A DNA stretch of 64,000 bases from Callaeas wilsoni (Eukaryota > Chordata > Aves > Passeriformes > Callaeidae), in NCBI GenBank assembly GCA_013398955.1, contig VWPU01012124.1, positions 1 to 64,000 on the forward strand. Direction: 5' to 3'. The translations under genes and the position numbers were made by a program. This document shows positions 5,741 to 58,077 of the stretch, piece after piece. The notes below the pieces were generated by a model. That model was given only the letters and a program-made list of their open reading frames with translations. It made no database searches and had not been told where the DNA came from. Positions within the stretch are counted from its first letter, which is position 1, and each line of letters opens with the position of its first letter.

Positions 5741-5851
5741 TCAGAAGTAGTCATCCTTCTTGCCACCAGCTCCCTGCATTCCCGCATGGTCCTTCCGCTC
5801 TTGGACAAGCTCCAGGTCGTCGTTGTCATCCACCTCCCCTCCATGATCCTC
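5741..5851 (-). CDS. GOLIM4-like exon 14: C-terminus and stop
   Basis: The acceptor is CCTCTGCCCCCAG. It encodes residues 556-591, very acidic at first (EDHGGEVDDNDDLEL) and ending GGKKDDYF, then TGA at 5741-5743. The acidic composition fits the C-terminus of the family, but the last residues differ from those of GOLIM4 as I recall it. Confidence 0.88.
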   Translation of the reverse strand, partial: EDHGGEVDDNDDLELVQERKDHAGMQGAGGKKDDYF

Positions 5852-8800
5852 CTGGGGGCAGAGGGGACAGCCAGGAAGGGAAAATCAGCCAGGCCTGGAA
5901 AAGGAGACCCTAAATGACAGCACACCACGCTGCTCCCGAGCACTGCTGCTCCACCAAGCCAGCCCAGCCCTAGAAACCTGGCAAAACAGGGAAGAACCCA
6001 CCTCTGCCGGGACCTTTAGGTGTCATTGGCGAGACACAGAGGTGTTGCCATGATCAGCCAGGGTGTTTTAAGCACATTTAATATCCTGGCAGTGCAATGG
6101 ACCTGTGACATCTCAGCCTGTTGCCACGGCTGCACGAGGAGCTGACATGAGGAGCTGACGTGAGGGGCAGATACAAAGAGCAGATATCCTACATCCACCC
6201 CATTTAAAACTGTGCCACAAACCCCACCCGTGACATGCAGCAGCCAGCACAGCCTCCACGGATGCTTTCAGCTCCAACCACCCAGTGCAGACACCCACAA
6301 GAGGCCTGGATGCACACAGAGGAAGGAGACCTGACACCTGCTCTGCCCACCCCTTATTCCCCCACCCCCTTCATTCCCAGAGGCAGCCCAAACCATCAAC
6401 TCCTCAGCAATCCCGGTGAAACTGCAGGAAAAACCCTCAGAGCAGCCACTCACAAAGGGCAGGGAGAGAATGAATGAGACTGGAGGAGGACTCATTTCTA
6501 TCTCTGTGAGCCAGAAGGCACCAGGGTGAGCCTCTCTAGCTCATGCTTGAAGAAACACATTGATCTGGCCTTGCTGCTCTGGCACAGCCTGTGATTGCTC
6601 CTGTGATTCCTCCTGTGATTCCTCCTGGGCAACCTGGGACAGTGGAAGGTCTGCTGTTTGGGAAGCATCCCACAGCTCAGCTGCTGCAGGTGGATGCAGA
6701 CGGAAAGGAGGAGGGGACACAGAGCACAAAGGGTGCTCTGAACACCTGGAAAAGGGAGCAGTGGGCTCCAGGCTTGTTCTGGAGACCTCACTGAGCAGGC
6801 AGAGGCAGACCTGGAGTCCCTAAAAGCTGAGTCCTCCCCAGCTCCTGGCTGCCAACACACCCAGGTGACGCCACACCAGAGAGGCAAAGAGGAAGAACCT
6901 TGGTGTCGTACAATTTCTTGCTCCTGATCTTCTTGATAATCATCCAGCGGGTCTTCCCTGGGCTTGGCAGGTCTGCCAGCATCCTGGAAAACACAGCCAG
7001 ACACGCTTGAGAGTGCCCCAGCCTGCTCCCATTCCCTGCCAGGGACACAGCTCCCGGGATCAGAGCCCCAGGTCTGGAAGTCGGGGCTGCCCTGGGGATC
7101 ACGGGGAGCAGAGGGACAATCAAGCAACCCCAACTCCATTTACTTCTGCCACCCAGTCTCTTTTCCCACCTGCTGGCAGCTCCTTCCACTTGGAGAGGGA
7201 GGTTTCTCCTGCAGCAGGAGGGCCCCAGGGCTCTTGCCTCAAGCTCCAGGACTCTGGGAAACTTTGACTTATTTAGGGTAGAGGTTTAGGGAGCACAGCA
7301 CAGCCAGATCTGAAAGCCAGGTATTTATGTCACTAATTCTTTCCACATTTTCACTAATCTCAAGGAGGTGTTGCTCTGCTGGTGCCAGCATCTCTCTCTT
7401 ACTTTATTTCACTGGCCTGGATTTCTTTTTTTCTTTCTTAATCCCACTATTAATCATGATTTTAGAGTTTGACGGATAAAACACTCCTTTTTTAAAACAA
7501 GCAACATTCAGCTGCTTGTCAAAACAAATGAACATTTCCCTGATGCAGAGTCTGGCTTCAGGCAGCAAGAAACACTTTGTGAAATAAATGGATTCCACCT
7601 GCAAGGAGGCAAACAAGGAGGCAGAGCTCTCACATGTTGTCACTGCTGCCAGGAGCCTTGGACAGGGCTGCACGGACCAGAACCCAAGCACAGATTCAGA
7701 TTATTGTCTCTGGTTCTGCTCCCAAGGGCATGAAAAGTCCCAGCCCCTGTGCAGGAGCAGCTGGGAGTGAGCCATGCCCTGTTCCACGTTTCTCTCCAGC
7801 CATGAAGGTGTTGCAAGTGCCAGGGGGGACTTTGACAAGCAGAGAGGACAAGGCCAGAGCAAGCTCTGGTACTGACCAACCTGCCAGAGAGCTGCCAGCT
7901 GCCTGCCACATCCTCACAGGGGGATTACGGATCCATCCAGAGTGTGATGTTTCCCTTTCAGTCCTTAAGCTCTCTGCCCACCCACCCACAGCTGGGGATC
8001 CCTCCCTGGCCCTGCTGGTTGTCCCCAGTCTGTCACCTTTGGTGGCTTCTCCTTTGACTCTTCTTTAACGCTGGGCTCCTTGAACTTCTCTGAGCCTCCC
8101 ACCTTCTCCTCAAAGTCAGGTCTCTCCAGCTCAGCCTCCTCAAACTCATCCTCACCTTGGTTATTGGGGTCCTGGGCAGGATCTGCAGCATCATCTGGCA
8201 TCTGGACAAGAAAAGCCTCTTGTGAATACATGGCAGGATATTCCCTCAGGAGGCAGAAAGATGTCTTCCCCAGCAAGCAGGAGCGCTGGCCTGGAGCACT
8301 TGGTTGCACCTCTCCAATCCTGTCAGTGTTTGTTAAAAAATCCCCAAACCAGTCTTTGTTATCCCTCCAGATCCAAGGAGTTTGGAGTTGCACATTACAG
8401 AAACTTCTGGGTAATTATTGACTCATTGGATTCTTGTTCCGAGCCAGAGCTGCATTCGGATGAAACGTGGCAGGACTTTCCACAGCCAGGCTGGGTGGGG
8501 CTTGGAGCAACCTGGGACAGTGGAAGGTGTCCCTGCCCATGGCAGGGGGTGGGCTGAGATGGTCTTTAAGGTGCCTTCCAATGCACTGAGTGGTTTTATG
8601 ATGCTGAGGTTACTCACCATGGGCTCCTGGACCACGGCCTCTTTCTGCGAGTGCACGTTCTCCTCCCTGTCGATCACTCCTGCATCTGCAAGGGACAGGG
8701 ACAGGGACAGGGATGGGGACAGGGACAGGGACAGGGATGGGGACAGGGACAGGGATGGGGACAGGGACAGGGACGGGGACAGGGACAGTCAGTGGGGTCT

Positions 8801-11800
8801 CCTCAAGGCCACTGCCACCAGTCTGGCAGTTTGTCTCCACCTGCTTGGGGCAGCCAATGCTCTGTGAGCGTGTGCAGGGGAATCCAATGCCAAGAATGAA
8901 ACGTTTCCGTACCCATTTCCAGCTCCTCCTCATCCGCCCTCTCCTTCTCTGCTGCCTGCTCTGCCCCTCTCCTCGGGCTGGGGGGCTGGGGGCTGCCTCT
9001 CTGCACCTCCTGCCCGCCCTTGGGGGCAAAGTGAAGGTTCTTGGGGTACCCATGGACTTGTTCCTCATCCATCTGGGCGTTCACCTTGCTAACGATGTCC
9101 TTCCAGCTGCAACCAAACAGAACCCCCTGCCTCAGAACACATTCCATAAAGCCATTTCATAATGGCAAGCAGAGAAAGGAATACTCCAACACATGCAGAA
9201 GTTTGGCCTAATTTAACTTTTTTTCATCGAAACTAGCAGGTTGTATTAATTACTGTGATATCTGCTTGAAAAAGAACATTTAATATGCCACATAGTACGG
9301 AACAAGTTCTGCTTTACAAACGCAATTTATTGTAGAACTCCCTTTATATTATTCACGTGACAATGACATCCACATAGCAATAAACTCCAGTTCTAAATAG
9401 GTTCTTACTCATGCCTCACACATACCCAAACACACACATCTAAGGGTTTAAAAATATCAAAACCACAACTCTTCTTTATTGTTCCAGCTTCATGGAAAAT
9501 GAAGATGCTACTAAAGTAAAATGAATGCTTCCCAAATGTCTGAGTAGCCTTAGTCAGGGACAGCTTCAGAAGTAAAGAACAGATGAAATCCCAGTGATAG
9601 GGACTCAAAAATAAGTGAAGCAAAAACTTTTAACCCCAGTAAGTTGCAGCAAGTTCCAAGCAGTCTGACTGCTTGCTCCAGCCTGTCCTCTACACGAGAT
9701 TTAAAAATCTATTTAAAACATTTCAGTTTTTAACTGCTGGAAAGGACAAGTGGCTTTACCTTTAGCAGCTCTTGAAGTCAGCACACAAACCCTTCTGTGA
9801 GGAAAATCACAACCTAGCCCCCAGCTCAGATTTCCCCATTATAAAACCATCAAAATGCAAGTTGGCCACTAAGAGCTCATCTGGAAGCCGCTGGTCAGAG
9901 CCTCCCAAGGCAGCAGTTCCTGGATGTGGGGCCCCTTTGTGCTCTGCTGCAGCCCCGTGTTGCTCTTGGCTCCGACAGGGCTGGGTTTTGTGCTCCTTAT
10001 CACAAATCTCAGCCCATGTAAACAACAGCCTCCAGCTGCTCTCTAATTCCTTGGTGATAGCTCCAGGAAAAGCAAAGCACACCAAACACCCCAGGATCCC
10101 TGTCCTCGCCGAAATGCCTCGCCAAGCAGATCAAATATTTGCATTTTCTGCCTCACATGGTGACAGGAAGCTGGCTGGGCTCTGCGAGGTGAGGAAAGGC
10201 CATGCTGCCACCACAGCCCTCAGTCACAGCCGCAGCAGAAGCAGCAGAACATCCCCCGAGCTGCTCCTGCTGTGTCCCTGCAGATGGGATTTATCACAGC
10301 ACTTTGGGGAGGACGTGGCCAGCTAAAGAAACAAGCAAAGCACTGTCTCTGCTCTGGAAAGGCCGCAGGTTAAGTGAACAGACAGAAATAGAAGAGGAGA
10401 AAGGGCAGGATCAGGCTGAGTCTAGAATGAAATCCAGAAGTTTCCTCTACAGATAAAACAGAAATGAAATCCTGTTTGCTCCAATAAACTGAACAGGCAT
10501 GACCTGCACACACACAGGGGATAAATAAGTTAAAGGAGGAAGCACTATTTTCAGAGTCACTTTTTGGATTGTGGCCAGATTTTGGTGAATTGCAGCCACA
10601 GAGGGACATTTTCTTCCTTTTGCAGAACAGAGCAGTCTCCTGCCAGTGCTGCTGAGACAATACACGGCTTCCCCTGTGCCTGCACAGCACCCACGGGATC
10701 CTGGGCCCTACCAGACTCCCAGGAATTCCACCAATACCAGTAACACACCAAAAAAAAGGCTGTTCTTCCAACCACCTTTCAAACAGACTCACAATAAACA
10801 CCAGACGAGGGATGTGCCTGTGGGCGCCTTCACCCCGGACGCTGAGGGCAGAAGAGTTTTGTGTCACCAACCTTTGCATTTGCACCTGTCTGTTCCCTGC
10901 TGAGTGGTGGTTGTCTGGCACTGGAGGTTTTTCTGCTGGAGAGGGCTGTCTTGGATCAGCCAGGGACAGCCCAGGAGCCTGGCTTTCCTCATGGCTTCGC
11001 ACCTGGATGCGCATCACCATCTTCACGTCCTGCAGAGGAGACACGTGTGGGCACCTGGGATATCAAGTACCCCCAAATGTGGACAGGTTTGTGGGCCAGA
11101 CAGTCCTTTATCAAAGAACAAACATTCTGAAGTGCTCCAGAACCAGCCTACAGTCCTGCCCACCCTGCAGCAGAAGACTCCTCCTTTAATGCGGCCAAAA
11201 AGGAATAATTTAGACCCTGTGTGACCCAGGCTTGTCTGGAGTAGGTGAATCTCCAAGAAAAGAGGAACAACAAAACCACCTCTAAAATACCCCTCCCACA
11301 TCCACATTACTGTAATTAAAGTCTAGCCACACTGCAATTATTGTCTTTTTTTAGAGATTAACTCCCTGTCAATCACCCCAGGAGTCTGGCGGGGCTGCAT
11401 TGATGATTTGCTCTTTGCAGACTCGGCAGAAGAACCCACTCCCCTGAGCCCGGCCGTGAAACCACCAACCCCTGAGAGTGCAGGCTGTGCTAAACCCGAG
11501 GGCAGCGCTGCCCCCACTCACGACACCACAACCACCAGAGCTCCGAGCTTGCCCAAAAGCAGCCGCGGCCTGCAGGACCTACCGGGCTCGCGTTGGGCAC
11601 GCTGTTCATGGTGCGGGTGAACCTGACCACATGGCCGTCCCCGTGCCGGGCTGGCCAGGCTGGCACGGCCTCTGGCAGCGAGTTGGCATCCCGTGCTGGG
11701 GCTGCCTGGGTGAAGGGCACGCGTGGCTGTGGCCTGGGGCCGTCGTGGCTGGAGGATCCCCGTCCCGCGGGCAGCTGAGCGCCGGGCAGCGCGGAGGGCA

Positions 11801-14800
11801 GCGCGTTCACGGCGGGACGGTTCTCCTGGCTGACCTGGAAAGGCTGGAGGGAAGGAGGGAAGGAAGGGAGGGAGGGAAGGAGGGAAGGAGGGAAGGAAGG
11901 AAGGAAGGAAGGAAGGAAGGAAGGAAGGAAGGAAGGAAGGAAGGAAGGAAGGAAGGAANNNNNNNNNNNNNNNNNNNNNNNNNNNNNNNNNNAGGAAGGA
12001 AGGAAGGAAGGAAGGAAGGAAGGAAGGAAGGAAGGAAGGAAGGAAGGAAGGAAGGAAGGAAGGAAGGAAGGAAGGAAGGAAGGAAGGAAGGAAGGAAGGA
12101 AGGAAGGAAGGAAGGAAGGAAGGAAGGAAGGAAGGAAGGAAGGAAGGAAGGAAGGAAGGAAGGAAGGAAGGAAGGAAGGAAGGAAGGAAGGAAGGAAGGA
12201 AGGAAGGAAGGAAGGAAGGAAGGAAGGAAGGAAGGAAGGAAGGAAGGAAGGAAGGAAGGAAGGAAGGAAGGAAGGAAGGAAGGAAGGAAGGAAGGAAGGA
12301 AAAGAGCAAACTGTCAGCTGGAGGGAGCTGGAGCTTTGTTCCTCCAAAGCCCCGGGAGCCCTGCAGAACGCTGCTCCCTGGGTTTTCCTGGGAATACCAC
12401 ACCTTCTGCCTCCCCGGCTGCAGCTGGCTGCTGGCTGGCACCAGGGGCTGCTGCCACTTCCCAGCTCCTCCTCCTCCTCCTCCTCCTCCTCCTCCTCCTC
12501 TCAAGCCCGGCATCTTCTGGAGAGCTTCCTTGAGCTGCCTGAACTCTTCCATCTGGGCCTGAGGGGAAGAGAAGGATACAGAGGAACCTCACACAGGGTT
12601 AAACATCTCTGTGCTGGGAACAGCCACTCCTTATTCGTTTGGCACAGGTAAAAGAAAAGAGGTATTTCATACATATGAAAGGTCGGAGAAAATCCACAAC
12701 CACCAATGACAAACCCAGCTTGCCCTCCAGATTTCGGTATTCCCCCTTTGCCCATCCTGCCTCTTATTTTATTGCACTTTTACCCTGCGAGTGCTGAGCT
12801 GTGGCACTGATTCTTTTCCTGATGCTGTTCAGTGCAGGAGCCATGGATTAACTCCTGCCTCGGCACAAGGATTGTATCCTGGCTCTTAGCTGTGCCTGCC
12901 TCTCCTCCTGTCCCTCCAGGTCACCTTATTCCCTTCCAGTGGAGGCATTTCCCCCTGGATGTGCTCATCCCAGCGGGGCTGACAATAATTGGCATAATCC
13001 TACTTGACAATCCAATTTACTTTGCAAGACAAAGGAAAATCGATTCTCCTGGGCTGAGTAAGCAAATGCAACCCTCCTCTCTCTCCTGCAGTTTCTTTCT
13101 TTCATCTCCAGCCCTGAAAAGTAGGGCTTGAAAAAGCCACTCAGGAAAAGCTCCTCATTTCCACCCTGGTTATTTATAGGAAATTGAGGGGGGAGACCTT
13201 TTCATGTGCTTGCCAGGGTACCTGGAAATGGACCAAATTAGGGACTGGGCAGAGCAGGAAAGCTTCCAAGCAGCAAGCAAAGTTTAGCAGGAAATTAATT
13301 CCTGAGCAGGCTCTGTTGATTTCAGTTCTTCCCCCTGAAATGTGACCTTAAAATTAACATTAAAAACAAAACAAACACCAACAAAACCCCTCAGCAAAGC
13401 AAACATAAAAGGAAGGAGGAAAAGGCAGCCAAGAAGAGTTCCTGGGATATGAATTTGTAGGAAACTTCCAATCAGGACAAACCAGATGGATGCAAAACTT
13501 GTACCCATCAATTCACCATCACTTGGAAGTGTTTGGGATGTGGGCAGGTGACAGGAGGTATTCCAGGGCTGGGAATTCAGGGACTTGTGCAGCAAACCTG
13601 AAAATACTGAAAGTGTTTTCAGCTGCTGGGACAGATTCCAGGCTGGAGAAATTTAGAGAATGGATCTACACTACCAACACCTACCAGCGCTGTTTCAGGC
13701 AACTCACCACTCTAGAATACAGCTGGTAGCAGGATTTATTAATTATTTAGAGAATGTCTGAATGCAGGCCCCAGGTGGTTACCTGGGCACTGAGGAGCTG
13801 GGAGTGAACCTCCTGGTGGGCCTTCCTGAGGAGCTTGCTCTCTTCTCTCAGTTTAAACACTGTGTCTGCAGGAGAAGAAGAAATTTGTTTAACAGAGCTG
13901 TTTTGGCAAGTGTGGCATCTCCCTTTCTCACCACAAATTCCTCCTGACCCCACAGACCTCTCCAAGCCCAGGAATTACAAACCTGCTCATCATTCCTCCC
14001 AGCACTCCCGGGAATTCCTTCTCTCCAGAGTCTCTGCTAATTCCTGCTCTCAGCTCAGGCTCTCGCTGTGTTTGCCGCAGGAGTCAGATAATTTGGGGTT
14101 TTATTTCCCTTCCCCCTTGCAGATGAAGAGCAGGGGGAGCAGGGAGTCACTGCCCCTTCCTGGGGGAACTGGAAGCTTCAGGAAGAACCCCAAGAGGGGT
14201 CTGCCAGGTCTCCTGAGCCCACAGATTCCCTCCTCCTACACGGAGAAGCTGCTTCTCGATGGTACAAACCAAAAAAAACCCCACGACCCACTTCGAGAAA
14301 ATAACCATGGGACAGTTCTGTCCCCAGGCACGTTTATTCCTGGGCTTTTAAGGATCAGTTGTGCCCTGCAGCCTCCCGGCTGGGCTTTTTCAAGCTCCTT
14401 GCACACTCCTGAGCACTCCAGCGCCAAGATGCGTGATGTGCCGAGGGCTGGGTATCACCGTGTGCCCTCTGAAAGGAAAGGCTGTGTCCCAAAATGCCAG
14501 CCCTGGTTCGGGTCCTGGATCTCTCAGAATACCCCAGGACAGGATGCACCGGGGTTCCTCTGCGGGCACAGTGGCACTATGGGCTGGCATGGGAATTTTT
14601 CCGTAACTGGACGGTCTCTGCAATAGGATGAATTGCCACAAGGCTCAAAATTACAGATATTTCTGCTTACAGGGTGTTTCTTTTCTTCATATTCAGCCCT
14701 GAGACAACACATTTTGCCTCTGAGGATGGGTGCTGTGCTCTTGCCTTGCAGTGAAGGTTGACATCAAACTGAGAGTGGAACACTCAGTGAGAGCCAACCT

Positions 14801-17800: not shown

Positions 17801-20800
17801 ATAACAGCACCTCAAACCCAGCTGCTTCTGCCCTGAGTTAAGAGCAGCTTTGTGGACAGCAACTGGACGGAGTAGAATCAATAACTTGGATGTTTAACTC
17901 ACGAGCAGAGGAAGGCCACACCTCATTTTTCACGTTCCAGCAGTTCCAGGAAGTCCAAGTCAGAGTTCCTTGGCCTGCTGCAGGGAATGCCAGGATCCCT
18001 CCTGCAGAGGGATGGCAGCGAAACATTTTCATCTCCACTCAAGAGGAAGAAAGGACTTGTAAGACAAAGCCTGGCCCCAGCAGGAACCCAGACACAGGCA
18101 ACGGCTCCAGCTGCTATTTTCGGGCAAAGTCAAGCCCCTCGCCCCTCTGAGCTGCTGTGCCAGCTCCAGATGTGAATCAGCCATTGAGGGAGGACTTTGG
18201 GTGACAGCAGAGGCCCAGGAACACCAAAGCCAGATGTGCTGGGGTGGCTCCATGGAACCCTTTGGTGACATTTGGGACCTCCAGCTCAGTTGCTTCTGTT
18301 CAGCACGACATTTCCCAGGTGATGACATTCCTGGCAGCAATCTTCCTCCTGAGGAAGCCAGTTCCAGTGGGAAGCATTTTTGCCTGGGCTCCAGTGACAG
18401 AAGTGTTACCCACAGCCTCATAAGGAGCAGAAACTGGGCTAAAAACTGCTTTTTCAGGCTGGGGAGGGTTTGAAATCTCCCACAGTCCCAAGGGCTGGTT
18501 ATGTCTTTCAGCAGCTGTAAATGTAGTGTAAAAAAATAGATGGTTGGTTTGTTGTTTTTTTTTTTCCCACCCCTCCAATAAAAGGAAGCAAGAGAAAGGG
18601 AGACAGGATGAAAAAAGCTCTGAGTGTCCCCTTGAGAGAAGCAAAGCAGAGCATTCTGCTCAGCCTGCAGTTGCTATGAAGAGGAATGCTGCTATTGCAG
18701 AGCGTTCCCAGAATCCACGGTGCTGGAGAATGCCCAAGAGACAGAACTGTACTTCCCTTTTCGCCAGGTTTGAATCCAAGAGCCAGGCAGCTGGAGGTCC
18801 AGCTCAGCTCAGGAAATCCAGCCCAGCGGTGCTAAGGGCTGCTGGAACCCAGCCCTCTTTCTCCATCCCAGAATTAAATTAGCATTTCACTGCCAAGGCT
18901 TGGACTAAAAACGTTTTAAAAACCACCCCAGCGGCCCCCAGTTGCACTGCTCGGTTGCACTGCTCCAGCAAAAGCAAGATATGCTTCAGGTAGAGCACGT
19001 GATAAGCTATAAAATGCTATAAAATGCTATAAAACGCTATAAAATGCTATAAGCGGCCCTGCTCTGAGCCTCTTCCATGGACTGGAATATTTTGGATGAG
19101 CCCAAAGGGCAAGCTCCAATGAATAAACCCATTTTCACACGGAGAGACCCAGGAAAACAGCAAAACCCTGTGTGATAAAAGCAGCAATGGCACAAAGGCA
19201 CAAAGGTGTAGGTGAAAGCTGTAACCTGACACAGAAGAAACAGGAACTCCCCTGGACTGGGCAGTCAGGAAGGAACGTGGATCAGCACGGATCTCCTTCC
19301 TAAGAGCAGGAATCCCTCGGTCCTTCCTGGGATTCTCCATCCCTCAGAACACAGCAGACAAACCCCCCTTACCTTCAGGATCTTGTGCTGGGAACTGAGG
19401 GCCCCATATCTGTTCATGGAGTCTTGCTAGGGAGAAAAAGATCCAACAGTGCCGTTAGAGTCCAGAAAAATCCAAGGCAGGGAGAAAAAACCACCCAGAG
19501 GCACCTGCCCAAATCCCTGCTGCCCCTTCACACCCACGGCCGGGACTGGGACAAGCCCACCACGGGGACCAGCAGAACATGCAGGGCTGGAAAAGAACTT
19601 TTCCAAAGAACCTTTTCAAAGCAACCCATCCAGCAGCTCATTAACTGCATGCTTAATTCACACTCAGAGTGGTTTTCCCCAGCCTTCAGCCCTCTCTGAA
19701 GGCCAGGGCTGGTGCTGAAGGAGCTTTGCACAGTGAACCCCTTCCCTGAAGGCTGAGCTCTCCTGGCAGCTGAGGGGGAGGCAGAGAAAGCAGCAGAGCT
19801 CAGGCTGTCACCTACACACAGAAATTGCACCGTTTCCCCAAAAAATGGATCACTAGGCAATCGAGTGAGCCTCAGGCAAACTCTGTCACCAGGCACAGCA
19901 GCCAAACTGAGCTCAGCTGGCACCAAACAGCAGAGGAGAGGGATTTTCCCCTCCAGAGGGGTCTGTACCTGTCCAACAGCTCAGGCCTCGCTAAGGGTCA
20001 CCTCCTTCCTCTGTGTCCCCAAGGCACCGTTCCCCACCCCATCACAGCAGGTGTGGAGCCACCAGCCCCTGTGCCCAAAGGCTTTGTCCCCAGGGCAGCA
20101 GTGGCACCCGAGAGGGGACAGTCCCAGTACAGGCAGGTTTACAAAACGTCTGCTGGGGTCTGGGTTTGGGCACTCCAAAGCAAAGCAAAGTGAGCACCAT
20201 GCAGAGACTGCCACTACGACCCTCAATTCAGCAGGAGAAATACTCAATAAATACTCAATGCAGTCTCAAACATCACCAGCAAATCAGCCCAAATTGCAAG
20301 GGAGTTGCCCACCATTAAAAAAAATTCAGATATCTTTCTGTCATTCACCCAGAGAGGAGCGGGCTGAAAGTGATTCCCCTTCTCCAGCATCTCATCCACA
20401 GATGCTCTGGGAAAGGAACAAACCCAGCCTGATAACTTAAGTGAATGTGACAGACTGTATCCCAGGGATGCATTTCTTCCCAGCCCCCACTGAAGAGTCC
20501 TTTCCCTGCCGAGTGGGGAGCCCACAGGCTGGTGAAAATCATCTGACAATCCCTGGAGACAGAAAACAATGGATATGCTTTCCCCAGCACCACCGTGGCC
20601 GTTCCTCCCCGTGTTCCTGCGGTGAGCCTCGCATTCTGCCTCCCCAGGCCTCTCCTGTCCCATGGAACAGCAATTCCCCTGCCACAGCAGGAGCCGGGAA
20701 TCATCTCCTCGGCTGCCACACGTGGGAGAACAGGCAGAGCAGCTCCAGCCCTGCACAGCCCTTCCCCGAGATGGAGTAAATCCTCACACACTCCTTGAGC

Positions 20801-23800
20801 AGAGGAGTCAGCCAAAGTTCAGCCTGTACCACGCACACACGGAGCCTTCCCTGCCTTCCAGTGGCCTCCCGGCCCTGGTGGCACCAGAAAAAAACATTTC
20901 CCATTGTTCCACAGACACCCTGGGATAAACCACACCTACCTTCTCCTTGTTGAGAGCTTCCTGAGCTTCTAACTTGTACACTAAAAAATCTAGAAATGGG
21001 AGAAGAGGAGGCAGTTTAATGAGCTGGAATTTCACAAGGATCTGGTTTGTATTTTGGAGGGGAGGGGGAGGGAAGAAGGAACTTAGCCCCTTGCTGAGCA
21101 AAAAGCTGCAAGTCAATAAGCTGGAATGCAGATGCTGCTGGGAGACCATTCCATGCCCTTGGGAAGATGGGAGAGCTCTCCATGAGAGCTGTCCACCCAA
21201 ATGTCCTTCCTTTCCCATGCCATAGGCAAGGGCATTGGGGATCTCCTCCTTCAGCACACAAGCAGCTTCAGTTTGATGTCAAGGAGGCTGAATAACTTTG
21301 TGGGGTGCTCTGAAATGAGAGATGAGTCTGGAGAAGGGGAACCAAAGCCGTGAGACCCAAACTCATGTGCTGCTCTCGTCTGTGCCACCTTCTTAAAACA
21401 GGAAGGTCCCGTGACAAGGACACGTGTATCAGGACGCTCCATTTTCTCACCAAATAAACTGAAGGGGCAGCTCAGAAATGCAGCTTCTGCCTCAGCCAGA
21501 CAGCCAAACCTGGGTGCTGAATCCAGCACCCAGAAGCACAGAGCATGCCGGAGTGAGGGGCAGGGACCTTACCCCACACACCACTTCCAAAGATAAAGCC
21601 CAAGTTATTAAACTGCCAACAACAATCGGGTGGAGAGGGGCCTGACACCCCAGCACAGCACTCTGCTGAAAGGCACGAGTTAATCTGTTGGCTTTCTGCT
21701 TCCTGCTGTATTTCACGGTCGTAAAATCCCCTGCACGTTTGTGTGTCCTTCTGTGCACCAGCTCTGAAGGACCTGACAGCCTGCATTGTCCACGCGTGGT
21801 GGAGGGCAGTGATGCTGACACCACTGAGCACTTGTAGAGCTCAGCATCTTCAGCTCACTTTTGGAAGAAAGTTGACATCTTTCCAAGAAAAAAGCATGGT
21901 CCAGTGCCAGGTTTAGTCACCACTTGAAGCGTTCAGACACCACGACAGGGGCACTGTTACTCACAGATTGGCCTGAGGACAAACGTAGGAGTAGGAGAGA
22001 ACAGCATCCACCTGCCAGCACCTTCTGCCCACGGGCGCTGGACACGTCACTTCACCACTCCCAAACGGCACTCAGTGACAGCCACACGTGGCCCTGAGGC
22101 AGGAGAGGCTTTGGGGACAGCTGGGGCTTTGCCTGGCCGCTGCTGTGCCACCCATGCAAGGGACTCACCTTCCTTTGTCTTCTTGTGCTCCCCTCGCTCC
22201 TTCTGCAGGGATCGCTCCAGCCGGGACCTGTGCTCGTACACCACTGTGGGAGCAGCGAGAGGCAGAGCGTGACTCAAACCTGGAATTTATCCCCACCTAT
22301 CTTCTTCCACATATTTATTCTCCTGCCTGGAGCAGGGAGGGGACAGTCGGGCTGCAGACCACGGGTATTGCCGATATAATGCACCATGCAGAGACTGCCA
22401 CTACAGCCCCCAACTCAGTATGATAAATACTCAATAAATACTCAGTGCAGCCTCAAATATCCCCAGCAAATGAGCCCAAATTGCAAGGGAGTTCACCGCC
22501 ATTAGTTTGCTCACCCACAAATTGGGAGTATTTGCACTCAGGTTTTGCTTTGGAGCCCAAGCTGTGATGCCCAAGAGCTGCTTTAGTGGCCAGTGGCTAA
22601 ACTTTGTGGGCCAAGCTCCTGCCAGGCTCAAGCAGCCAGAGTCACCTGTTCTGTAAAGTCCTCAGCACCATGCAGGAGAGACATTTTCCCCCTTCTACAA
22701 CCCAGCCACTGACTGGCCCTCAGGGCAGAAGGGAAATTTTTTCCCCTTCTACAGCCCAGGCCACTGAGAAAAACTGAACCAAGCAGCCCCTTACACACAA
22801 AACAGCTCGAGAACGGAGAGGGCTGAGCAGCCACAGGGCAGATGGGAGTGCCAGAGAAGCCTCCTGTTGGATGATGACTCGAATCCACCCTGAGGTGTCA
22901 ATGCCACCACACTCAGCTCCAACGGGCTCCTCACCCCCTCGGACGGGCCAGGGCAGCACTCAGAGGGAGAGGTGATGGAAGAAACCTTGCCAGAGCCAAG
23001 ATCCCTGCAGAGCCAAGACCTTTGGGGGCCAGTCGTGCCATACACACGGCCTCCAGGAAAATGCAGCAAGGGGGGTGATGTCTGAGTGCATGAAACCAGC
23101 GCTAATCCATTCCTTGCTGAGATCTTGCCAAGCCAAGAGCCCCAAGTGACTCATGCTCTCACTCCAAGTGGGTCTGTGGAGCCTGCCAGCTCCACTCGGG
23201 TCGTGCTGCAGCAGCAAATTCCTGTGTCACGTCTGACCTCCCTCAAGGGGCAGGAAGGGGCAGTGCCATAGGTGAGCCAGGCCATCTCCTTCCTTATCTT
23301 TGAGAACACACGGACATCCCAGTGGTGAAGATGCTTCCCCTGGGCTGGGCCACTCCACTCAGGCTTTCCTCTGAACCGTTTCAATTGTTCAACCCATTCC
23401 AGCAGTGGTTTCAACCTGGAAAGATGCTTCCCCCTGCTAAGCAGCAAACCCATCTCAGCAGCTGCCCAAGCCTCCGAGACAGCTTTGTTTTTAGGAGCAC
23501 TCTTCCCAACAGACTGCTCAGATGTCACCCTGCGGGCTTCCGGGCCGTGGGTGCTTCTCCACTCCATGCTAGAAAGACTTGTCCAATGGAATTGTCAGCT
23601 TGGGAACATCAGCCACTTCCCAGAGGATTTGGGAGCCCTGGGCATTCACTTTCTGACTTTCTTACATCTTTCTCACAGTCTTATCTAGCAGAGCTCCTGA
23701 GGGCAAGGCTTTGATGCGATGGGAACTTCCCAGCAGCAATGGAAAGCATCTGAAGCAATGGGCTTGTGTTAACACCCAGAGCCACAGATCCTAACGAGGC

Positions 23801-26660
23801 CATCCCGGAGCGGGGGAGGCTTCAGGGACAGCTCCCTATCACGGGCTGTTTATTCAGAATTTTACAACACAAAATCTGGCTCTCCCCAACCCTGTTTTTA
23901 TAAGTCAGATAAACTGAAGCAACCTCTAATGACTAGAGAAGAAAGTTTTAACCTCTCCTGCCTTTCCTGCAGCTCCCCAGAGCCCAGAGAAAGCGGGTTC
24001 AGCTTTACACAGAGCAGGGAGTCAGCACGGCACACAGCAGTGTCTCAGCCCTCGAGGCTGTGCAGGGCCTGGAGTTGGACTTTGATAATCCCAGTGGGTC
24101 CCTTCCAGCTCAGGATAATCCAGAATTCTATGATTCTTTACTCATCTTTGTGGTGGAACACAGCAACAACTCATCCGACCAAACTGGCACTGCACAGCTT
24201 CGGAGGCCAGGGAGCCAGGAAGTCTTTAACAATTTGCTTTTACGAGAGAGAATGGAGGGTGGTCAGAGTCTAAATCCAGGCTGGAATCCAGCCAGGGCTC
24301 TAAGGCACCATCACCTGCTGCCAAAGGAGCTGCTGAAACAATGACATCCCTTGCTGAAAAGGCAGGATCAGATGCACAAGACGACAGGGGAATTAAAGTC
24401 ATGCAACAAGTGCAGGGACAGAGCCCAGAGCCCCAGGTTTGTCCCCAAAGCGCTGCCGGGAGCAGACACAGCCCCGCAGCCACGGGCAGATGTGCCAGGC
24501 ACCACTGCACTGCAAGACTTGCACGAGCAGCGCTCCCATCTGCCACTTGCCAGGCTTCTCCCGGCAGCCAGATCCAAAAAGAAGCCTTGCCTTTGTTAAA
24601 ATTGTTGGACAAGTGAGTGTCTTCTCAAAATAAAAAAGGGTAGCCATGGCAACAACTGTATTTAGGAATGGGAGGACTGACAGGGGCTTAGAAACCCCAG
24701 CAACAGGCTGCAGCTCTGCCATTAGCACATATTTGGGTGGAAAAACTGTGAGCTTGGCTCAGTTTTTGGCCTGTTGTTCCCAAAACCGGGGTTCCCTGAG
24801 GCTACCACTGTCATTCTCTGGAGAACCAGCCCCTCTCCCCAAGAGGAGCAAGAGTTGCTGACACACCAGAAAGGAATGTGGGTTAACTTCTGCCCTGCTG
24901 ATCTCTGCACACCCCGAACTCGGGATGCAGGTGGAAATCGTGGCTGGGACTGAGCTGTAGGTGTTTGATTGCCTCGTGGAGTGAGGAAAAATGGAACCAA
25001 ACCGTAAGATAATAGCGCTGAACCTGAACGCGCATTAGATCAATTCCCAAGGCTGACGGGGTTTTGTTTCCTGGAGAGGAGCACACACCCCCCACGCTCT
25101 GCCAACGGGAACACACAGCCCTGGGCACCAGCAGCCCTGGTGGGATGTTCCATTCGCATCACAACACTGCACACAAAACCACCGGGAGAAGGTTTAACCC
25201 TGAAAGACATCAATGTCGAGTCACAGATCTGCAGAATTCCCCAGCAATTTCTCTAGGCAGAATACTCCTGGATGTGTCCAGGGAGGTCATGACAGATATC
25301 CTGTGTTCGATTTTAGCCTGACGAAGAGCTCTGATATAAACACCGTGATCTAAACTGACTTTTTAGGGGGGAAAAAAAAGGGGGGCTAAATTAATCTCTT
25401 GACCTTGAGTAGAACAATATTTTGGCCACATCGATTCATTCCGTGGGCACTCCAGAGGCAGCCCGTCCTCCAGCATGACACACCCAAGCGCTGGCTACCC
25501 CGAGGGGATTCCCACCAAACCTCTCCACGGGGAGCTCAGCAAATCCCTCCAGAGACTCCAAATCCTGTGACAGCTGCTGGAAACGTCGCCTTGGCAGACA
25601 CAGAAAGGCTGGAATGATAGGCTAGACAAAGGAGATAAGAGTTCAGCGGTGGAGTAACCGCGTGTCCTCAGCCTTCCCTGCCGACAGCTCCCCGTGGGCA
25701 AAAATCCCATTTTCCCACAGTGAGGCATTTATGTAAGGAGGACAAATGAGGGGAGAAAGGGGGAGGAGGAATCCACACACTGTTTTTGCCTTCCGGTCTC
25801 CGGCAGCTCTTGCCAGAGGAACCGAGTGCTGGTCAGCGGGATCAGAAAAGCCAATCCTTCCTCCTCCTCCTCCCCTCTTTTTAGGGAGCTAAAAATGCTG
25901 TGCCGCAGCATCCATCAGACCCAAAAATGCTGGCAAGATTTTTTCTAGTCCCGGATCAACCTCTTGAGAACGAGGTGGGTTTACTGCCTTGCGAAGGCAG
26001 TGGGCAGCAGCAGACTGTGACAACAAACTTTAGTGAAAGATCCCTTCCCTCTCTGCTCACTTCCACACGGGGCAGAGAGAGCGGAGCCTCATCTCAGTGC
26101 CTGCCTAAGCAGCCCCTGCCAGCCCTGCCTGCGTTTTTACTGCTCCACATTTAGCACGACAGGGGCTTAGATTTGCAGCCGAAGGCAGAAGAAATGGAAT
26201 AGACGTGACGCAGCTGAGCTCGCCGATCCAACACGCTCCGTCCCCGCTTTGCTGCGAGCAGCAAATTCAGACTCAAGGCTGTTCTAATTCCAGACAGCCA
26301 AAGGCGAGGGGGGGAAGGAAACAGGCACAGCATCTTTAAAGCCGAGGGCTGCACGTCCCCAGGGCGCCCTGCTTGTGGCTGGGCAGCGAAGCCACCAGCA
26401 GGTAACGCTGGGAGGGAGCGAAGTTCGGGCAGGGTGTGCGCACGCAGAGGCACATCCAGAGCGGGTCACTCACCTTGGAGCTGGGCTGACAGCGCTTCCT
26501 GCTGCTGTTTGTATTTCTGCGCCAGGGCTTCGGCGTTCCGCACCTTCTGCTGCAAGTGGTTGTAGAGGAAAACTCCGGAGCCCAGGCACGCCACGGTGAC
26601 CAGGCAGAAGGCGGTCTGCAGCAGCCCCTTCTGCCTCCTCGAGCACATCCCGGTGCCCAT
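5741..26660 (-). CDS. GOLIM4-like Golgi type II membrane protein, 14 coding exons, 591 aa (span of whole gene)
   Basis: Exons in coding order: 26474-26660, 22169-22243, 20940-20989, 19373-19426, 15381-15531, 13783-13865, 12403-12558, 11583-11834, 10872-11029, 8913-9106, 8618-8685, 8037-8201, 6912-6983 and 5741-5851. Total 1776 nt including TGA; all phases agree. The product has a basic N-terminus, a membrane segment at about residues 12-33 and a lumenal heptad-rich coiled coil at about 35-220. Next come 11 glycines (221-231), a proline-rich linker and an acidic tail. Family signature: SAQLQVVYEHRSRLE and DFLVYKLEAQEALNK in the coil, and DPNNQGEDEFEEAE near the C-terminus. GOLIM4 (GPP130) is a cis-Golgi protein that cycles through endosomes and is degraded under high manganese. 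Human GOLIM4 has about 696 residues; this protein is shorter and lacks the long Gln/Glu-rich middle. The divergence and the MIB2 neighbourhood suggest a paralogue rather than GOLIM4 itself. Confidence 0.88.
5852..6911 (-). other. Intron 13 of the GOLIM4-like gene
   Basis: It holds the doubtful exon 6586-6633 and no other feature I can support. Confidence 0.7.
6586..6633 (-). CDS. Possible small optional exon (Glu/Gln/Ser repeat)
   Basis: It has a good-looking acceptor (TTCCACTGTCCCAG), phase 0, and would encode VAQEESQEESQEQSQA from three near-copies of a 12-15 bp unit. The donor (GTGCCA) is weak. The acceptor side also matches the CR1 sequence accttccactgtcccagg, so it could be a CR1-derived splice site or no exon at all. 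It is not included in the 591-residue product. Confidence 0.25.
6912..6983 (-). CDS. GOLIM4-like exon 13: acidic tail (3' end uncertain)
   Basis: There is a good acceptor (GTGTTTTCCAG). It encodes DAGRPAKPREDPLDDYQEDQ and EQEI, residues 532-555. The 3' end is set at a weak GTACGA donor because that keeps phase 0 for the last exon. An alternative is 15 nt further on (CAAG followed by GTTCTT), which would need another exon to restore the phase. Confidence 0.72.
6984..8036 (-). other. Intron 12 of the GOLIM4-like gene
   Basis: Unique sequence of ordinary composition; I see no repeat, exon or RNA gene in it. Confidence 0.75.
8037..8201 (-). CDS. GOLIM4-like exon 12: conserved acidic family motif
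   Basis: The acceptor is TTTTCTTGTCCAG and the donor GTGACA; phase 0 at both ends; residues 477-531. It carries DPNNQGEDEFEEAE, a stretch I recognise from the acidic C-terminal region of GOLIM4, then a Lys/Glu-rich end (KEESKEKPPK). This motif is far from the coiled coil, so two separate conserved regions support the family call. Confidence 0.93.
8484..8607 (+). mobile_element. CR1 LINE fragment, 3' end
   Basis: It has the typical order of avian CR1 3' ends: ggagcaacctgggacagtgg, aggtgtccctgcccatggca, a ctttaaggt box, then a decayed tail (tttatgatgctgag). It is plus-oriented, antisense to the gene, and ends about 10 bp from the donor of exon 11. Confidence 0.85.
8618..8685 (-). CDS. GOLIM4-like exon 11: acidic tail
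   Basis: The acceptor is TCCCTTGCAG and there is a perfect GTGAGT donor; phase 1 in, phase 0 out. It encodes residues 454-476, DAGVIDREENVHSQKEAVVQ plus EPM. The TGTCCC repeat lies directly upstream on the coding strand, and a CR1 fragment begins right after the donor. Confidence 0.88.
8688..8793. repeat. (GGGACA)n hexamer repeat in intron 10
   Basis: About 17 units of gggaca with gggatg and gggacg variants. On the coding strand it reads TGTCCC and leads directly into the exon 11 acceptor, supplying its pyrimidine tract. Confidence 0.95.
8913..9106 (-). CDS. GOLIM4-like exon 10: lumenal region with charged C-terminal part
   Basis: The acceptor is TTTGGTTGCAG and the donor GTACGG; phase 2 in, phase 1 out. 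It encodes residues 390-453, with WKDIVSKVNAQMDEEQ at the start and an acidic end EKERADEEELEM. Around FAPKGG and PQPPSPRRG it is proline- and glycine-rich. The split codon at the 3' end makes an aspartate with the next exon. Confidence 0.85.
9107..10871 (-). other. Intron 9 of the GOLIM4-like gene
   Basis: Unique sequence, AT-richer between 9180 and 9620. I see no exon, RNA gene or clear transposon. Confidence 0.7.
10872..11029 (-). CDS. GOLIM4-like exon 9: lumenal linker
   Basis: The acceptor is TCTCCTCTGCAG and the donor GTTGGT; phase 0 in, phase 2 out. It encodes residues 337-388, opening DVKMVMRIQVRSHEESQAPG and ending NRQVQMQ. The last codon is split and completed as serine by the next exon (SWKDIV). 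No recognisable domain; Pro-, Gln- and Ser-rich. The donor is weak, but the phase match with the next exon supports it. Confidence 0.8.
11583..11834 (-). CDS. GOLIM4-like exon 8: proline-rich lumenal linker
   Basis: The acceptor is CCTTTCCAG and the donor GTAGGT; phase 0 at both ends; residues 253-336. It opens VSQENRPAVNALPSALPG and closes FTRTMNSVPNASP. It is rich in Pro, Ala and Arg and has one possible N-glycosylation site (NAS at the end, followed by P, so probably not used). The region has little similarity to the Gln/Glu-rich middle of GOLIM4. A second AG lies 9 nt upstream (11844-11845) and would add Pro-Phe-Gln in frame. Confidence 0.83.
11846..12301. repeat. (GGAA)n / (TTCC)n microsatellite in intron 7, with gap
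   Basis: A pure purine tract on the plus strand: first mixed GGAAGG/GGGAGG units, then a perfect GGAA array. It is interrupted by the 34-N gap. On the coding strand it is only C and T, and it runs up to about 11 nt from the exon 8 acceptor, so it forms its polypyrimidine tract. The true length is unknown because of the gap. Confidence 0.97.
11959..11992. other. Assembly gap (34 N)
   Basis: A run of 34 undetermined bases inside the GGAA array, bounded by identical repeat on both sides. The size is likely an estimate, since a short-read assembler cannot span a long pure array. Confidence 0.99.
12403..12558 (-). CDS. GOLIM4-like exon 7: end of coil and polyglycine tract
   Basis: The acceptor is TTCCCCTCAG and the donor GTGTGG; phase 0 at both ends. 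It encodes residues 201-252. AQMEEFRQLKEALQKMPGLR is like the TQV.EYKQLKDTLNRIPSLR segment of GOLIM4. It is then followed by 11 glycines, all GGA codons (12466-12498 as TCC repeats), and a Gln/Pro-rich stretch. The polyglycine is an in-frame trinucleotide expansion not known to me in GOLIM4, and its length may vary between individuals. The weak donor makes the 3' end less certain than the start. Confidence 0.82.
12466..12498. repeat. (TCC)11 / (GGA)11 trinucleotide repeat inside an exon
   Basis: Eleven perfect triplets code for eleven consecutive glycines on the minus strand. The tract sits where the coiled coil ends and the proline-rich linker begins, a place where a flexible spacer would be tolerated. 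Confidence 0.95.
12559..13782 (-). other. Intron 6 of the GOLIM4-like gene
   Basis: I looked here for the counterpart of a further coiled-coil exon of GOLIM4 and did not find one. No repeat is apparent. Confidence 0.65.
13783..13865 (-). CDS. GOLIM4-like exon 6: coiled coil
   Basis: The acceptor is TCTCCTGCAG and the donor GTAACC; phase 1 in, phase 0 out. It encodes residues 173-200 with FKLREESKLLRKAHQEVHSQ, matching the YNLREEN..LRKAHQ.IH.Q segment of GOLIM4. In human GOLIM4, as I recall it, a further coiled-coil exon follows here; I did not find it in this gene. Confidence 0.93.
15381..15531 (-). CDS. GOLIM4-like exon 5: coiled coil
   Basis: The acceptor is TTCCTCTCCAG and the donor GTGAGG; phase 0 in, phase 1 out. 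It encodes residues 123-172, starting NQHDDVKKQLLDLQLQHNSL and ending QLQQEKDSEVTNLQ. LEHRK and LQLQQEK-type motifs match the corresponding GOLIM4 exon. The repeated Leu/Gln heptads indicate a continuous coiled coil. Confidence 0.94.
15532..19372 (-). other. Intron 4 of the GOLIM4-like gene
   Basis: Mostly unique sequence. It includes an A/T-rich stretch near 16388-16412 and 16566-16606 and the 10-bp tandem repeat at 19006-19052. No exon recognised. Confidence 0.7.
19006..19052. repeat. 10-bp tandem repeat (gctataaaat)
   Basis: About 4.7 copies with one base change. Each unit resembles a TATA box, but there is no other sign of a promoter. Confidence 0.93.
19373..19426 (-). CDS. GOLIM4-like exon 4: coiled coil
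   Basis: A 54-nt exon, phase 0 at both ends, with acceptor TCTCCCTAG and donor GTAAGG. It encodes residues 105-122, QDSMNRYGALSSQHKILK, which aligns with the QDS.SRY.AL..QH..LK segment of GOLIM4. Confidence 0.93.
20194..20317. repeat. Duplicated intronic segment, copy A
   Basis: It is about 85-90 percent alike to 22381-22504 over 124 bp in the same orientation. Both begin gcaccatgcagagactgcca and include aaatactcaataaatactca. It is either a local duplication or two copies of an unrecognised interspersed repeat. Confidence 0.9.
20940..20989 (-). CDS. GOLIM4-like exon 3: coiled coil
   Basis: The acceptor is CATTTCTAG and the donor GTAGGT; phase 1 in, phase 0 out. It encodes residues 88-104, DFLVYKLEAQEALNKEK, almost unchanged from GOLIM4. 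This is one of the strongest pieces of evidence for the family assignment. Confidence 0.95.
22169..22243 (-). CDS. GOLIM4-like exon 2: coiled coil
   Basis: The acceptor is TCCCACAG and the donor GTGAGT; phase 1 at both ends. It encodes residues 63-87 (VVYEHRSRLERSLQKERGEH and on), highly charged and heptad-like, and very close to the same exon of GOLIM4. The flanking codons complete a valine at the 5' side and an aspartate at the 3' side. Confidence 0.95.
22381..22504. repeat. Duplicated intronic segment, copy B
   Basis: Partner of 20194-20317, 2.19 kb away; exons 2 and 3 lie between the two copies. Similarity fades after ccatta on both sides. The minus strand carries a short shared open frame, which is probably accidental. 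Confidence 0.9.
22505..26473 (-). other. 5' part of intron 1 of the GOLIM4-like gene
   Basis: Largely unique. It contains a CR1 fragment at 24061-24146 and a short gggggg/aaaaaaaa/gggggg run near 25366-25386. No other exon seen. Confidence 0.7.
24061..24146 (+). mobile_element. CR1 LINE fragment, 3' end
   Basis: It reads gcagggcctggagttggact, then cccttccagctcaggat and ends cagaattctatgattct, the characteristic CR1 3' tail. Only the last 90 bp or so remain. Confidence 0.85.
26474..26660 (-). CDS. GOLIM4-like exon 1: start codon, membrane anchor
   Basis: The ATG at 26660 opens residues 1-62 and the exon ends in phase 1 at a GTGAGT donor. MGTGMCSRRQK is a short basic cytoplasmic head, followed by about 22 hydrophobic residues ending in VFLY, then the start of the coiled coil with EALSAQLQ. 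Basic residues before the membrane span fit a type II signal anchor. The head MG.GMCSR.QK is shared with GOLIM4, while the membrane segment itself is different. Confidence 0.93.
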
Positions 26661-27420
26661 GGCGGGGCCGGAGCGCGGCGATGCACCGCTGCCTCGCCGG
26701 CGCTGCTAAAGCATCTGATTATTTTTGCCCAACGGCCCCTTTCCTCCGCAAACTCGCAGAGCCCTCCGGAAGATGCGATCGCAGGCTCGCCTTCGCTCCC
26801 TCCCAGCCCCGGGAGCGGCTCCTGCCAGGCTCTATTTCTATTCCTCGCTGTCCGTCGGGACGCGGCGCAGCCCCGGGCCGGTGTCCGAGCGGAGCCGCCG
26901 CATCCTCCGGCGGCCGGGGGGCGGCCCGGGGGGGCTGCGGAGCGAGGGCAGCCGGCGGAGGGCACCGAGCAGGAGCAGCGGGAGGAGGAGGAAAACTTTT
27001 GCTTCCCATGTGCTGCGGCGGAGAGGGGGGGGCGGGAAGGGGGTACAGCCGCCTTTGGCTCTTCCCACCTCCTCCGCTGGAGCACCGACCGGAAAAAATA
27101 ACCCGGCGAGAGGAGGAGAAGCCCTCGGGCCCCCTCCCCGCGGCTTCCCCCGCCGGCAGCTCCGGGAGGAAGCGGCGGCACCGCGGCCGGGAGAGCGGCC
27201 AGGAACGCGGCGGCGGCGGCGGCATCCGGGCTGCGGCGGCGGAGAGTCCGCCCTCGGCGGCGGGAGGGGCTGCGGGGACCGGAGGGGACAGAGAGGGACC
27301 GGGGAGACCTGGGGGGGATAACAGAGCCTCGAGCCCTGCCGCCCCCCGGGGGACCCGGGTCCCGCCCGCCTCCCTCCGCCTCCGCCGGGCCCCGGCAGCA
27401 CCCGGACCCCCTGGTCCGTG
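26661..27420 (-). promoter_or_regulatory. CpG-island promoter of the GOLIM4-like gene
   Basis: Strongly GC- and CpG-rich sequence directly upstream of the start codon, with GC-box-like runs (ggggggcggg near 27027) and a (CGG)n stretch at about 27208-27222. No TATA box at a sensible place. Long open frames on both strands here are composition artefacts. The transcription start cannot be fixed by eye. Confidence 0.75.
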
Positions 27421-27624
27421 TGTTCCTTTCCCCGCTCCAAACGAGCTGCCGGCACCTGTTGCTAACGGGAGATGGATGAGGGACACGGGAATGGATTCAC
27501 CGGGAGAGCATCCTCACACGAGTTATTTAACACCTGCTAGAAGCTGTGGTTTCTCCTCGGGAAAATAGGAGCTGATAAAGGCAGGAGTGCGGCACGAGGA
27601 GAAGGGTGTGAGTGTAGCGTTTTC

Positions 27625-27795
27625 CGAATGGTTTGCCTTGGAAGGGACCTTAAAGCTCATCCCATTTCCCTGCCATGGCAGGGACACCTTCCACTGTCCC
27701 AGGATGCTCCAAGCCCCGTCCAACCTGGCCTTGGGCTCTTCCAGGGATGGGGGATTCCAAGGTGTTCTGGACAGCTGAGCCTCTCCCAAGCACCT
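27625..27795 (-). mobile_element. CR1 LINE fragment, reverse orientation
   Basis: Reverse complement of a CR1 3' end: gaatggtttgccttggaagg, ccctgccatggcagggacac, tccactgtcccaggatgctc and the following cagggatggggg box. The 3' end points left. Confidence 0.88.
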
Positions 27796-27856
27796 GCCCT
27801 CCATGTGGGCTCTTCTGGCAGAGCCCAGATTGTTTTACCCAGGTGTGGGATGCACA

Positions 27857-27906
27857 AGGTGACCTTTAAAGGTCCCTTCCAACCCAAACCATTCCGTGAT
27901 TCTGCA
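27857..27906 (+). mobile_element. CR1 LINE 3'-tail fragment
   Basis: aggtgacctttaaaggtccc then aacccaaaccattccgtgat is the last 50 bp of a CR1. It lies close to the copy at 27625-27795 but in the opposite orientation. Confidence 0.8.
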
Positions 27907-57700: not shown

Positions 57701-58033
57701 CTTTTCAGGTTGTAGAAGTGCTGAGCTCCATTAATACCTCGCTGCAGGGCCACCCCAGTAATGTCCCTTGCCCTAAAGTGAAGGATGGTCCTCATGGGAC
57801 AGCCCTCAGCTGGAACAGAGCTCTGTCAGTGTCTATAACAACAACAAATTCATTTGTTTCCTCTGATTTTGTTTTTCCAGGGTCCTAGTGAGCCCTCGAC
57901 AGAATTTGACTCGCATCACATTAAAAGGGACTTTCCAGGGGGCTAAAGTGGTCCGTGGGCCTGACTGGGAGTGGGGTAACCAGGATGGTAAGCTGCTTTT
58001 GGGATGTCCTGTAAAGCACCATTTGACTTTGTT

Positions 58034-58077
<44 letters not shown>

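Follow-up and report, generated by a model that had tools for sequence, protein, structure and literature searches.

A GOLIM4 paralogue without the optional exon 7 lies next to MIB2 in the genome of Callaeas wilsoni

The genome of the bird Callaeas wilsoni contains, next to MIB2, a second gene of the GOLIM4 family, here named GOLIM4L, which is a paralogue of GOLIM4 and has a locus separate from that of the bird's own GOLIM4. It was found in the first 64,000 bases of an 86,018-base contig (C6768); this stretch, analysed at its full length, is called the window below. Fourteen exons on the minus strand (26660..5741) form an intact open frame for a GOLIM4-type protein of 594 residues. The best explanation as a whole, which we regard as probable, is that of an intact second family gene that originated in an early duplication and encodes a Golgi scaffold that would work without the ATP2C1 pump.

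Gene structure and genomic neighbourhood

The reading frame of GOLIM4L starts with an ATG at 26660 and closes with a TGA that ends at 5741 (Table 1). All 13 introns have GT-AG borders, the phases agree, and there is no internal stop. The coordinates given in the preliminary description for 14 phase-consistent exons are therefore exact, and the product is intact and full-length as described there, albeit with 594 instead of 591 residues. Least certain are two of the donor sites, that of exon 7 (12403, GTGTGG) and that of exon 9 (10872, GTTGGT). Both of the family signatures described earlier were found, i.e. the GOLIM4-type stem and the C-terminal motif DPNNQGEDEFEEAE, the latter in 132 of the 139 GOLIM4L relatives examined. 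Membrane anchor, linker and C-terminus had been characterised as unlike GOLIM4; linker and C-terminus do differ, but the N-terminal tail is not clearly different, as MGTGMCSRRQKG aligns with GOLIM4 MGNGMCSRKQKR.

Table 1. Features of GOLIM4L and its surroundings in the window
Feature	Position	Strand	Evidence or remark
Exon 1: N-terminal tail MGTGMCSRRQKG, membrane anchor, start of stem (aa 1-62)	26474..26660	-	Owl GOLIM4 query matches at 55%
Exon 2 (aa 63-87), convertase motif HRSR70	22169..22243	-	100% identical to Heterodontus; R68, R70 in 133/133 aligned rows
Exon 3 (aa 88-104)	20940..20989	-	94% identical to Heterodontus
Exon 4 (aa 105-122)	19373..19426	-	94% identical to Heterodontus
Exon 5, stem helix	15381..15531	-	Gene model, exon-wise comparison
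Exon 6, stem helix	13783..13865	-	Gene model, exon-wise comparison
Intron 6, site of the optional exon 7 of GOLIM4	12559..13782	-	No recognisable remnant, no GCATG
Exon 7 of GOLIM4L: end of stem and glycine run; position about that of GOLIM4 exon 8	12403..12558	-	Gene model
Exon 8, linker with FTRTMNS motif	11583..11843	-	Gene model, alignment
Exon 9, linker, weak donor GTTGGT	10872..11029	-	Gene model
Exon 10, SWKDIVSKVNA motif, absent from the GOLIM4 rows aligned	8913..9106	-	Gene model, alignment
Exon 11	8618..8685	-	Gene model
Exon 12, family motif DPNNQGEDEFEEAE	8037..8201	-	Invariant in 14/14 alignment rows
Exon 13	6912..6983	-	Gene model
Exon 14 and stop, C-terminus KKDDYF	5741..5851	-	Most sauropsid rows end similarly, with KKxxYF/Y
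GC-rich stretch around exon 1	26001..28000	.	GC 0.641
MIB2 (MIB_HERC2 and ZZ exons in window)	48455..64000	+	Continues past the window

Two observations concern the processing of the transcript. A (GGAA)n tetranucleotide run of about 450 bases (11846-12301, broken by 34 N at 11959-11992) directly abuts the exon 8 acceptor, whose pyrimidine tract it provides. An alternative C-terminus of GOLIM4L produced by reading through exon 13 is possible: many avian models include an isoform in which the exon 13 donor is read through and the protein ends with ...EIVRHQGG, and the window (6880-6983) leaves this frame open (EIVRHQGSS).

GOLIM4L (minus strand) and MIB2 (plus strand) are arranged head to head on one contig, in line with the neighbourhood given in the preliminary description. 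The MIB_HERC2 exon (about 48455-48730) and the ZZ exon (about 49925-50227) lie on the plus strand in the window, and the contig continues past it with the ankyrin and RING exons. By its sequence, we take this gene to be MIB2, not MIB1. The GC-rich stretch around exon 1 of GOLIM4L is likely to be a CpG-island promoter; bacterial promoter patterns, for which exon 1 was also scanned, are meaningless in a bird and were disregarded. A second GC-rich stretch (36-38 kb), which includes a GC-rich tandem repeat at 37931-38266, is possibly the promoter region of MIB2. Further repeats are a 63-base minisatellite near the contig start (9.7 copies, 94% matches, 169-779), a 141-base minisatellite right after the MIB_HERC2 exon (48721-49418), and an AT-rich unit of 102 bases that occurs three times inside MIB2 (96% matches, 54432-54743). 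A perfect 22-base Illumina adapter (32659-32680) has the same 49-base sequence on either side (32613-32661 and 32681-32729); the adapter with its flanking duplicate (32613-32729) is an assembly artefact.

GOLIM4L and GOLIM4 are separate loci and separate clades

When an owl GOLIM4 (P0214) was compared with the bird's own assembly (1.0 Gb, 12,470 contigs), 15 matches were obtained. Thirteen are on contig C4535, where exon 1 matches at 98%, and the other two are on the window contig and correspond to exons 1 and 2 of GOLIM4L. The same genome therefore has an ordinary GOLIM4 locus in addition to the window gene.

For the phylogeny, the window copy was combined with 27 of 139 GOLIM4L proteins and 16 of 85 GOLIM4 proteins (five placentals, two birds, two snakes, two geckos, three frogs, lungfish, and coelacanth), and the tree was drawn with a midpoint root, not an inferred one. 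In the resulting 44-protein tree (596 columns), all 16 GOLIM4 rows are on one side of a branch with a support of 100/100, at a split where long shark and GOLIM4 branches meet and with four rows of odd composition in the data. The other side comprises the window copy together with sauropsids, frogs, marsupials, and sharks/rays. A tree of the stem only (217 columns) gave the same split, again with 100/100, and the two kinds are told apart by 17 class-diagnostic positions among residues 1-217. The window copy is not placed inside the GOLIM4 orthologue clade, and the earlier interpretation as a GOLIM4 paralogue is upheld. The branching within GOLIM4L departs from the species tree (in the stem tree, frogs and marsupials are found among reptiles). 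Both kinds are present in each of three species, i.e. Bubo bubo, Crotalus tigris, and Heteronotia binoei, and they are on separate contigs in Crotalus (6.2 and 0.86 Mb) and likewise in Heteronotia (51.9 and 150.6 Mb).

Relatives and conservation

The closest relative is a Corvus kubaryi protein of 590 aa with 93% identity over 100%, and the best 120 of the 611 proteins with E-values of 1e-5 or better all belong to the GOLIM4L kind. Among the matches listed, many bird and reptile relatives bear the database name “Golgi integral membrane protein 4-like”, some bird rows are named plainly “Golgi integral membrane protein 4”, and several database models are partial. The “4-like” rows of e.g. Corvus and Chrysemys are of the GOLIM4L kind by sequence, and their annotation is silent on origin and function. 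GOLIM4L is already annotated and, as far as found, uncharacterised; no paper on its origin or function was found in the open-access literature searched, including the best 20 of 2,555 matches in the largest listing.

Conservation differs strongly along the protein. The identity per exon with the shark Heterodontus is 100, 94, and 94% for exons 2-4 and goes down to 13% for exon 9. Within the 60-residue core encoded by exons 2-4, the window copy agrees with a turtle and with one frog at 60 of 60 positions, with a marsupial at 59, with Heterodontus at 58, and with Hypanus at 56, compared to 44-47 of 60 for six GOLIM4 rows. Relative to owl GOLIM4, exons 8-11 and 14 have identities of 8-26%, and exon 1 of 55%. 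The near-identity of exons 2-4 with those of a shark and the divergence of the linker indicate strong constraint on the stem core but not on the linker.

Neither the stem nor nine relatives had a Pfam match above the cut-off, three sequences had nothing above the cut-off in NCBIfam, and no relative was found in the PDB at E 0.1. A few of the rows listed carry a precomputed Pfam label (PF26052), which was not recovered when two of them (P0119, P0137) were rescanned. An AlphaFold2 model of the Corvus relative, made with 14 other sequences, has helices at residues 8-81 and 86-215 and a further, short one (389-407) at the SWKD..SKVNA motif; 145 residues have a pLDDT of at least 90, and 348 of the 590 are under 50.

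These results bear on three other views of the gene. That the window gene is the bird's GOLIM4 orthologue, moved or misplaced, could be argued from its family membership and from the plain GOLIM4 name of some bird rows, but a far closer GOLIM4 is present elsewhere in the same genome, and the 100/100 separation in two data sets as well as the 17 diagnostic positions add to the case; the second locus on C4535 rules this view out, and we give it practically no weight. Equally negligible is a recent duplication in birds or sauropsids with fast divergence, in favour of which nothing was found: sharks, frogs, and marsupials carry the same kind, the core evolves slowly, and a constrained clade of seven bird GOLIM4L and two bird GOLIM4 rows was rejected with a p-AU of 1.8e-54, so that a bird-specific duplicate is ruled out by the tree test. 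An inert or decaying gene retained by chance would be compatible with the fast evolution of the linker exons 8-9 and with the partial database models. However, the frame is open across 14 exons, the core is identical to that of a shark at 58 of 60 positions, and, provided that LOC419409 is GOLIM4L (see below), chicken shows regulated expression of the gene. The intact frame and the conserved core rule out a pseudogene, and decay is scarcely more credible than the two preceding views.

Absence of the optional exon 7

Exon 7 of human GOLIM4 is reported to be alternatively spliced, with inclusion driven by RBFOX2, and GOLIM4 without exon 7 neither bound ATP2C1 nor rescued secretion in lung-cancer cells (PMC11178546, PMC11380049). 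Some GOLIM4 rows contain an optional exon of 28 residues, which we infer to be the published exon 7 from its place after six coding exons. It is present in nine of the 83 complete GOLIM4 rows, including four mammals, two snakes, a frog, and coelacanth; two of the 85 rows are incomplete, and one of the 83 (P0211) has another insert. The corresponding value for GOLIM4L is 0 of 136 complete rows, and the window gene also is without the exon. Three of the 139 GOLIM4L rows were set aside, i.e. P0072 and P0078, which also skip the next exon, and P0073, which has an unrelated stretch at this place; none of the three has exon 7. Two of the counted 136 rows (P0063, P0102) have inserts at the border of exons 5 and 6 that are not exon 7.

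The bird's own GOLIM4 has the optional exon in its DNA (C4535:14290-14373, QQHKNLLSQHNELVVTLEDHKSALAAAQ), with the borders ...tgtag and gtcag (AG/GT). A 5701-base piece of C4535 contains nine GCATG on the strand of the exon, four of them within about 185 bases downstream of exon 7. Three of these four are TGCATG, which we take to be the RBFOX motif, and the whole piece contains six TGCATG. The cluster by exon 7 is the only 190-base stretch of the piece with three TGCATG (83 of 5511 overlapping windows). For comparison, intron 6 of GOLIM4L (1224 bases) contains no GCATG, and a search in it for a remnant of exon 7 gave a score of 32, which is within the range of 100 shuffles (mean 23.8, maximum 36). 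Eight TGCATG are found in the whole gene of 20,920 bases, none of them in intron 6.

As neither the gene nor any of the 136 relatives has exon 7, GOLIM4L is fixed in the short form that is a splice option in GOLIM4. From the absence of the exon, GOLIM4L is predicted not to recruit ATP2C1. The GOLIM4 isoform without exon 7 resembles GOLIM4L in that exon 6 is spliced directly to the next stem exon, but in this human form without ATP2C1 binding (PMC11178546) the junction is a splice choice influenced by RBFOX2, whereas GOLIM4L has no such recognisable exon. In Crotalus, GOLIM4L occurs together with both isoforms of GOLIM4 (P0210 is the short one, P0212 the long one), and therefore the splicing of exon 7 did not arise to replace a lost GOLIM4L.

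Distribution and origin

A second search, with lengths from about 598 aa, yielded 297 proteins with E-values of 1e-5 or better. The 120 listed comprise 57 GOLIM4L rows with at least 344 bits, followed by 63 GOLIM4 rows with at most 247 bits. Eight sharks/rays, four frogs, and two marsupials (Trichosurus vulpecula and Petaurus breviceps) are among the 57. Placental GOLIM4L was not found among the best 120 of 611 or the 120 of 297 matches listed, and no ray-finned fish GOLIM4L is named among them either. The preliminary description had added to its paralogue interpretation that the gene may be absent from mammals. This part did not hold: the copies of Trichosurus and Petaurus rule out absence from all mammals and put the loss of GOLIM4L within mammals, not before them. 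As far as the matches listed reach, GOLIM4L seems to be missing from placentals.

In the unrooted tree, coelacanth, lungfish, and tetrapods are on the GOLIM4 side, and sharks and tetrapods are on the GOLIM4L side. This distribution implies a duplication before the coelacanth-tetrapod split, irrespective of whether the root is between the two kinds or on the shark branch, and on the tree obtained the GOLIM4/GOLIM4L split is older than that of coelacanth and tetrapods. Probably the root is between the kinds, in which case the duplication would predate jawed vertebrates, as the early genome duplications predict. MIB2 adjoins GOLIM4L, with synteny read on the window contig. Human GOLIM4 is located at 3q26, and we take the 1p36 region to pair with 3q26, e.g. 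in PRDM16/MECOM; through this pairing, the MIB2 neighbourhood would fit an early-duplication origin. A whole-genome duplication, with GOLIM4L as an ohnologue as proposed in the preliminary description, is the likeliest reading, based on the age of the split and the 1p36/3q26 pairing.

An unlikely alternative is an old single-gene or segmental duplication, or a duplication of bony vertebrates in which the shark copies represent the undivided ancestor. It would be compatible with the midpoint root of a tree that contains no outgroup, and with the protein searches, in which no ordinary shark GOLIM4 was found (including the best 120 of 611 and the 120 of 297). However, two shark/ray copies have core identities to GOLIM4 of 43-47 of 60, and are thus as distant from it as tetrapod GOLIM4L, and they differ from tetrapod GOLIM4L at only 2-5 of 60 positions. 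A later split would require that most of about 13 core differences arose quickly in GOLIM4 and were followed by near-stasis. The pairing of the 3q26 and 1p36 neighbourhoods also argues against this alternative, as does the published position of GOLIM4, which is said to adjoin TRPV8 “throughout vertebrates” in a comparison that names sauropsids and includes two chondrichthyans, with shark GOLIM4 unnamed (PMC9664204). The same source describes a single copy of genes including GOLIM4 in reedfish and gar, and a second copy through the teleost duplication in some teleosts; a GOLIM4L paralogue is unmentioned in its section 3.4.4.

Functional motifs and expression

GOLIM4L has in common with GOLIM4/GPP130 the N-terminal tail MGxGMCSRxQK, the coiled coil of the stem, HRSR70, Cys6, and the motif DPNNQGEDEFEEAE. 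It differs from GOLIM4 in the lack of the optional exon 7, in position 12, which is mostly G and not R, in a different linker (FTRTVNS, SWQDIVNKVNA), in the short C-terminus KKDDYF/Y, in the 17 diagnostic residues, and in its locus. Cys6, which may be palmitoylated in GPP130 (PMC12250082), is a C in all 127 aligned GOLIM4L rows. The furin/PC7 S1 motif of GPP130/GOLIM4 is described as lying around R70, and GOLIM4L has this motif with both arginines, R68 and R70, in all aligned rows (Table 1). The GOLPH3-binding pair described for GOLIM4, K11-R12 (mutant K11A;R12A), is half lost: K11 is present in 127 of 128 GOLIM4L rows and R12 in none of them (G in 122, including the window copy), compared to R12 in 81 of 81 GOLIM4 rows. 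As positive charge close to the membrane is what GOLPH3 generally recognises (PMC8421267) and R8, R9, and K11 remain, binding may persist. GOLM1 (GP73) and GOLM2 (CASC4), Golgi proteins with GOLPH3-binding tails, are listed alongside GOLIM4 (PMC8421267).

From its annotated name, the chicken gene LOC419409 is probably GOLIM4L. Its expression is reported to be 5.45-fold higher in the magnum, the egg-white gland, of laying compared to non-laying hens (PMC8088581), and elevated in the eggshell gland of one cross (log2 1.95, PMC12027243). LOC419409 is also listed in an array study of the ductus arteriosus (PMC6428269), among the vesicle proteins of chicken tracheal cells (PMC8780788), and in a list of genes with selection signatures (PMC8230197).

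Discussion

By its anatomy, GOLIM4L would be a type II membrane protein of the Golgi that has a short tail in the cytosol, a long coiled-coil stem in the lumen, and an acidic tail that is disordered. We infer from the sequence that it resides in the Golgi and, like GOLIM4, may sort or scaffold cargo in the Golgi-endosome circuit. As exon 7 is permanently missing, GOLIM4L is not expected to recruit the ATP2C1 pump; its retention in the Golgi may also differ, given that only half of the GOLPH3 “KR” motif is present. Furin/PC7 should shed it at HRSR70, as is the case for GOLIM4. Its use is probably in heavily secreting epithelia, e.g. the egg-white gland.

A more far-reaching view can be offered tentatively, and we consider it possible but doubtful. 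Jawed vertebrates might ancestrally have had two Golgi scaffolds. In one of them, GOLIM4, the RBFOX-controlled exon 7 would switch the recruitment of ATP2C1; the other, GOLIM4L, would be a short form dedicated to working without the pump and upregulated where secretion is massive, e.g. in the egg-white gland. Placentals would have lost GOLIM4L, leaving the exon 7 switch, which is tied to secretion in cancer, as their sole source of a pump-free scaffold. The presence of both GOLIM4 isoforms next to GOLIM4L in Crotalus speaks against this last step.

GOLIM4 is treated as the only one of its kind in the portions of the human and mouse literature consulted. If birds, reptiles, frogs, sharks, and marsupials indeed have a second, conserved copy that lacks the exon for ATP2C1 binding, work in chicken or frog must distinguish GOLIM4 from GOLIM4L, and a natural short-form GOLIM4 would provide a clean test of the role of exon 7.
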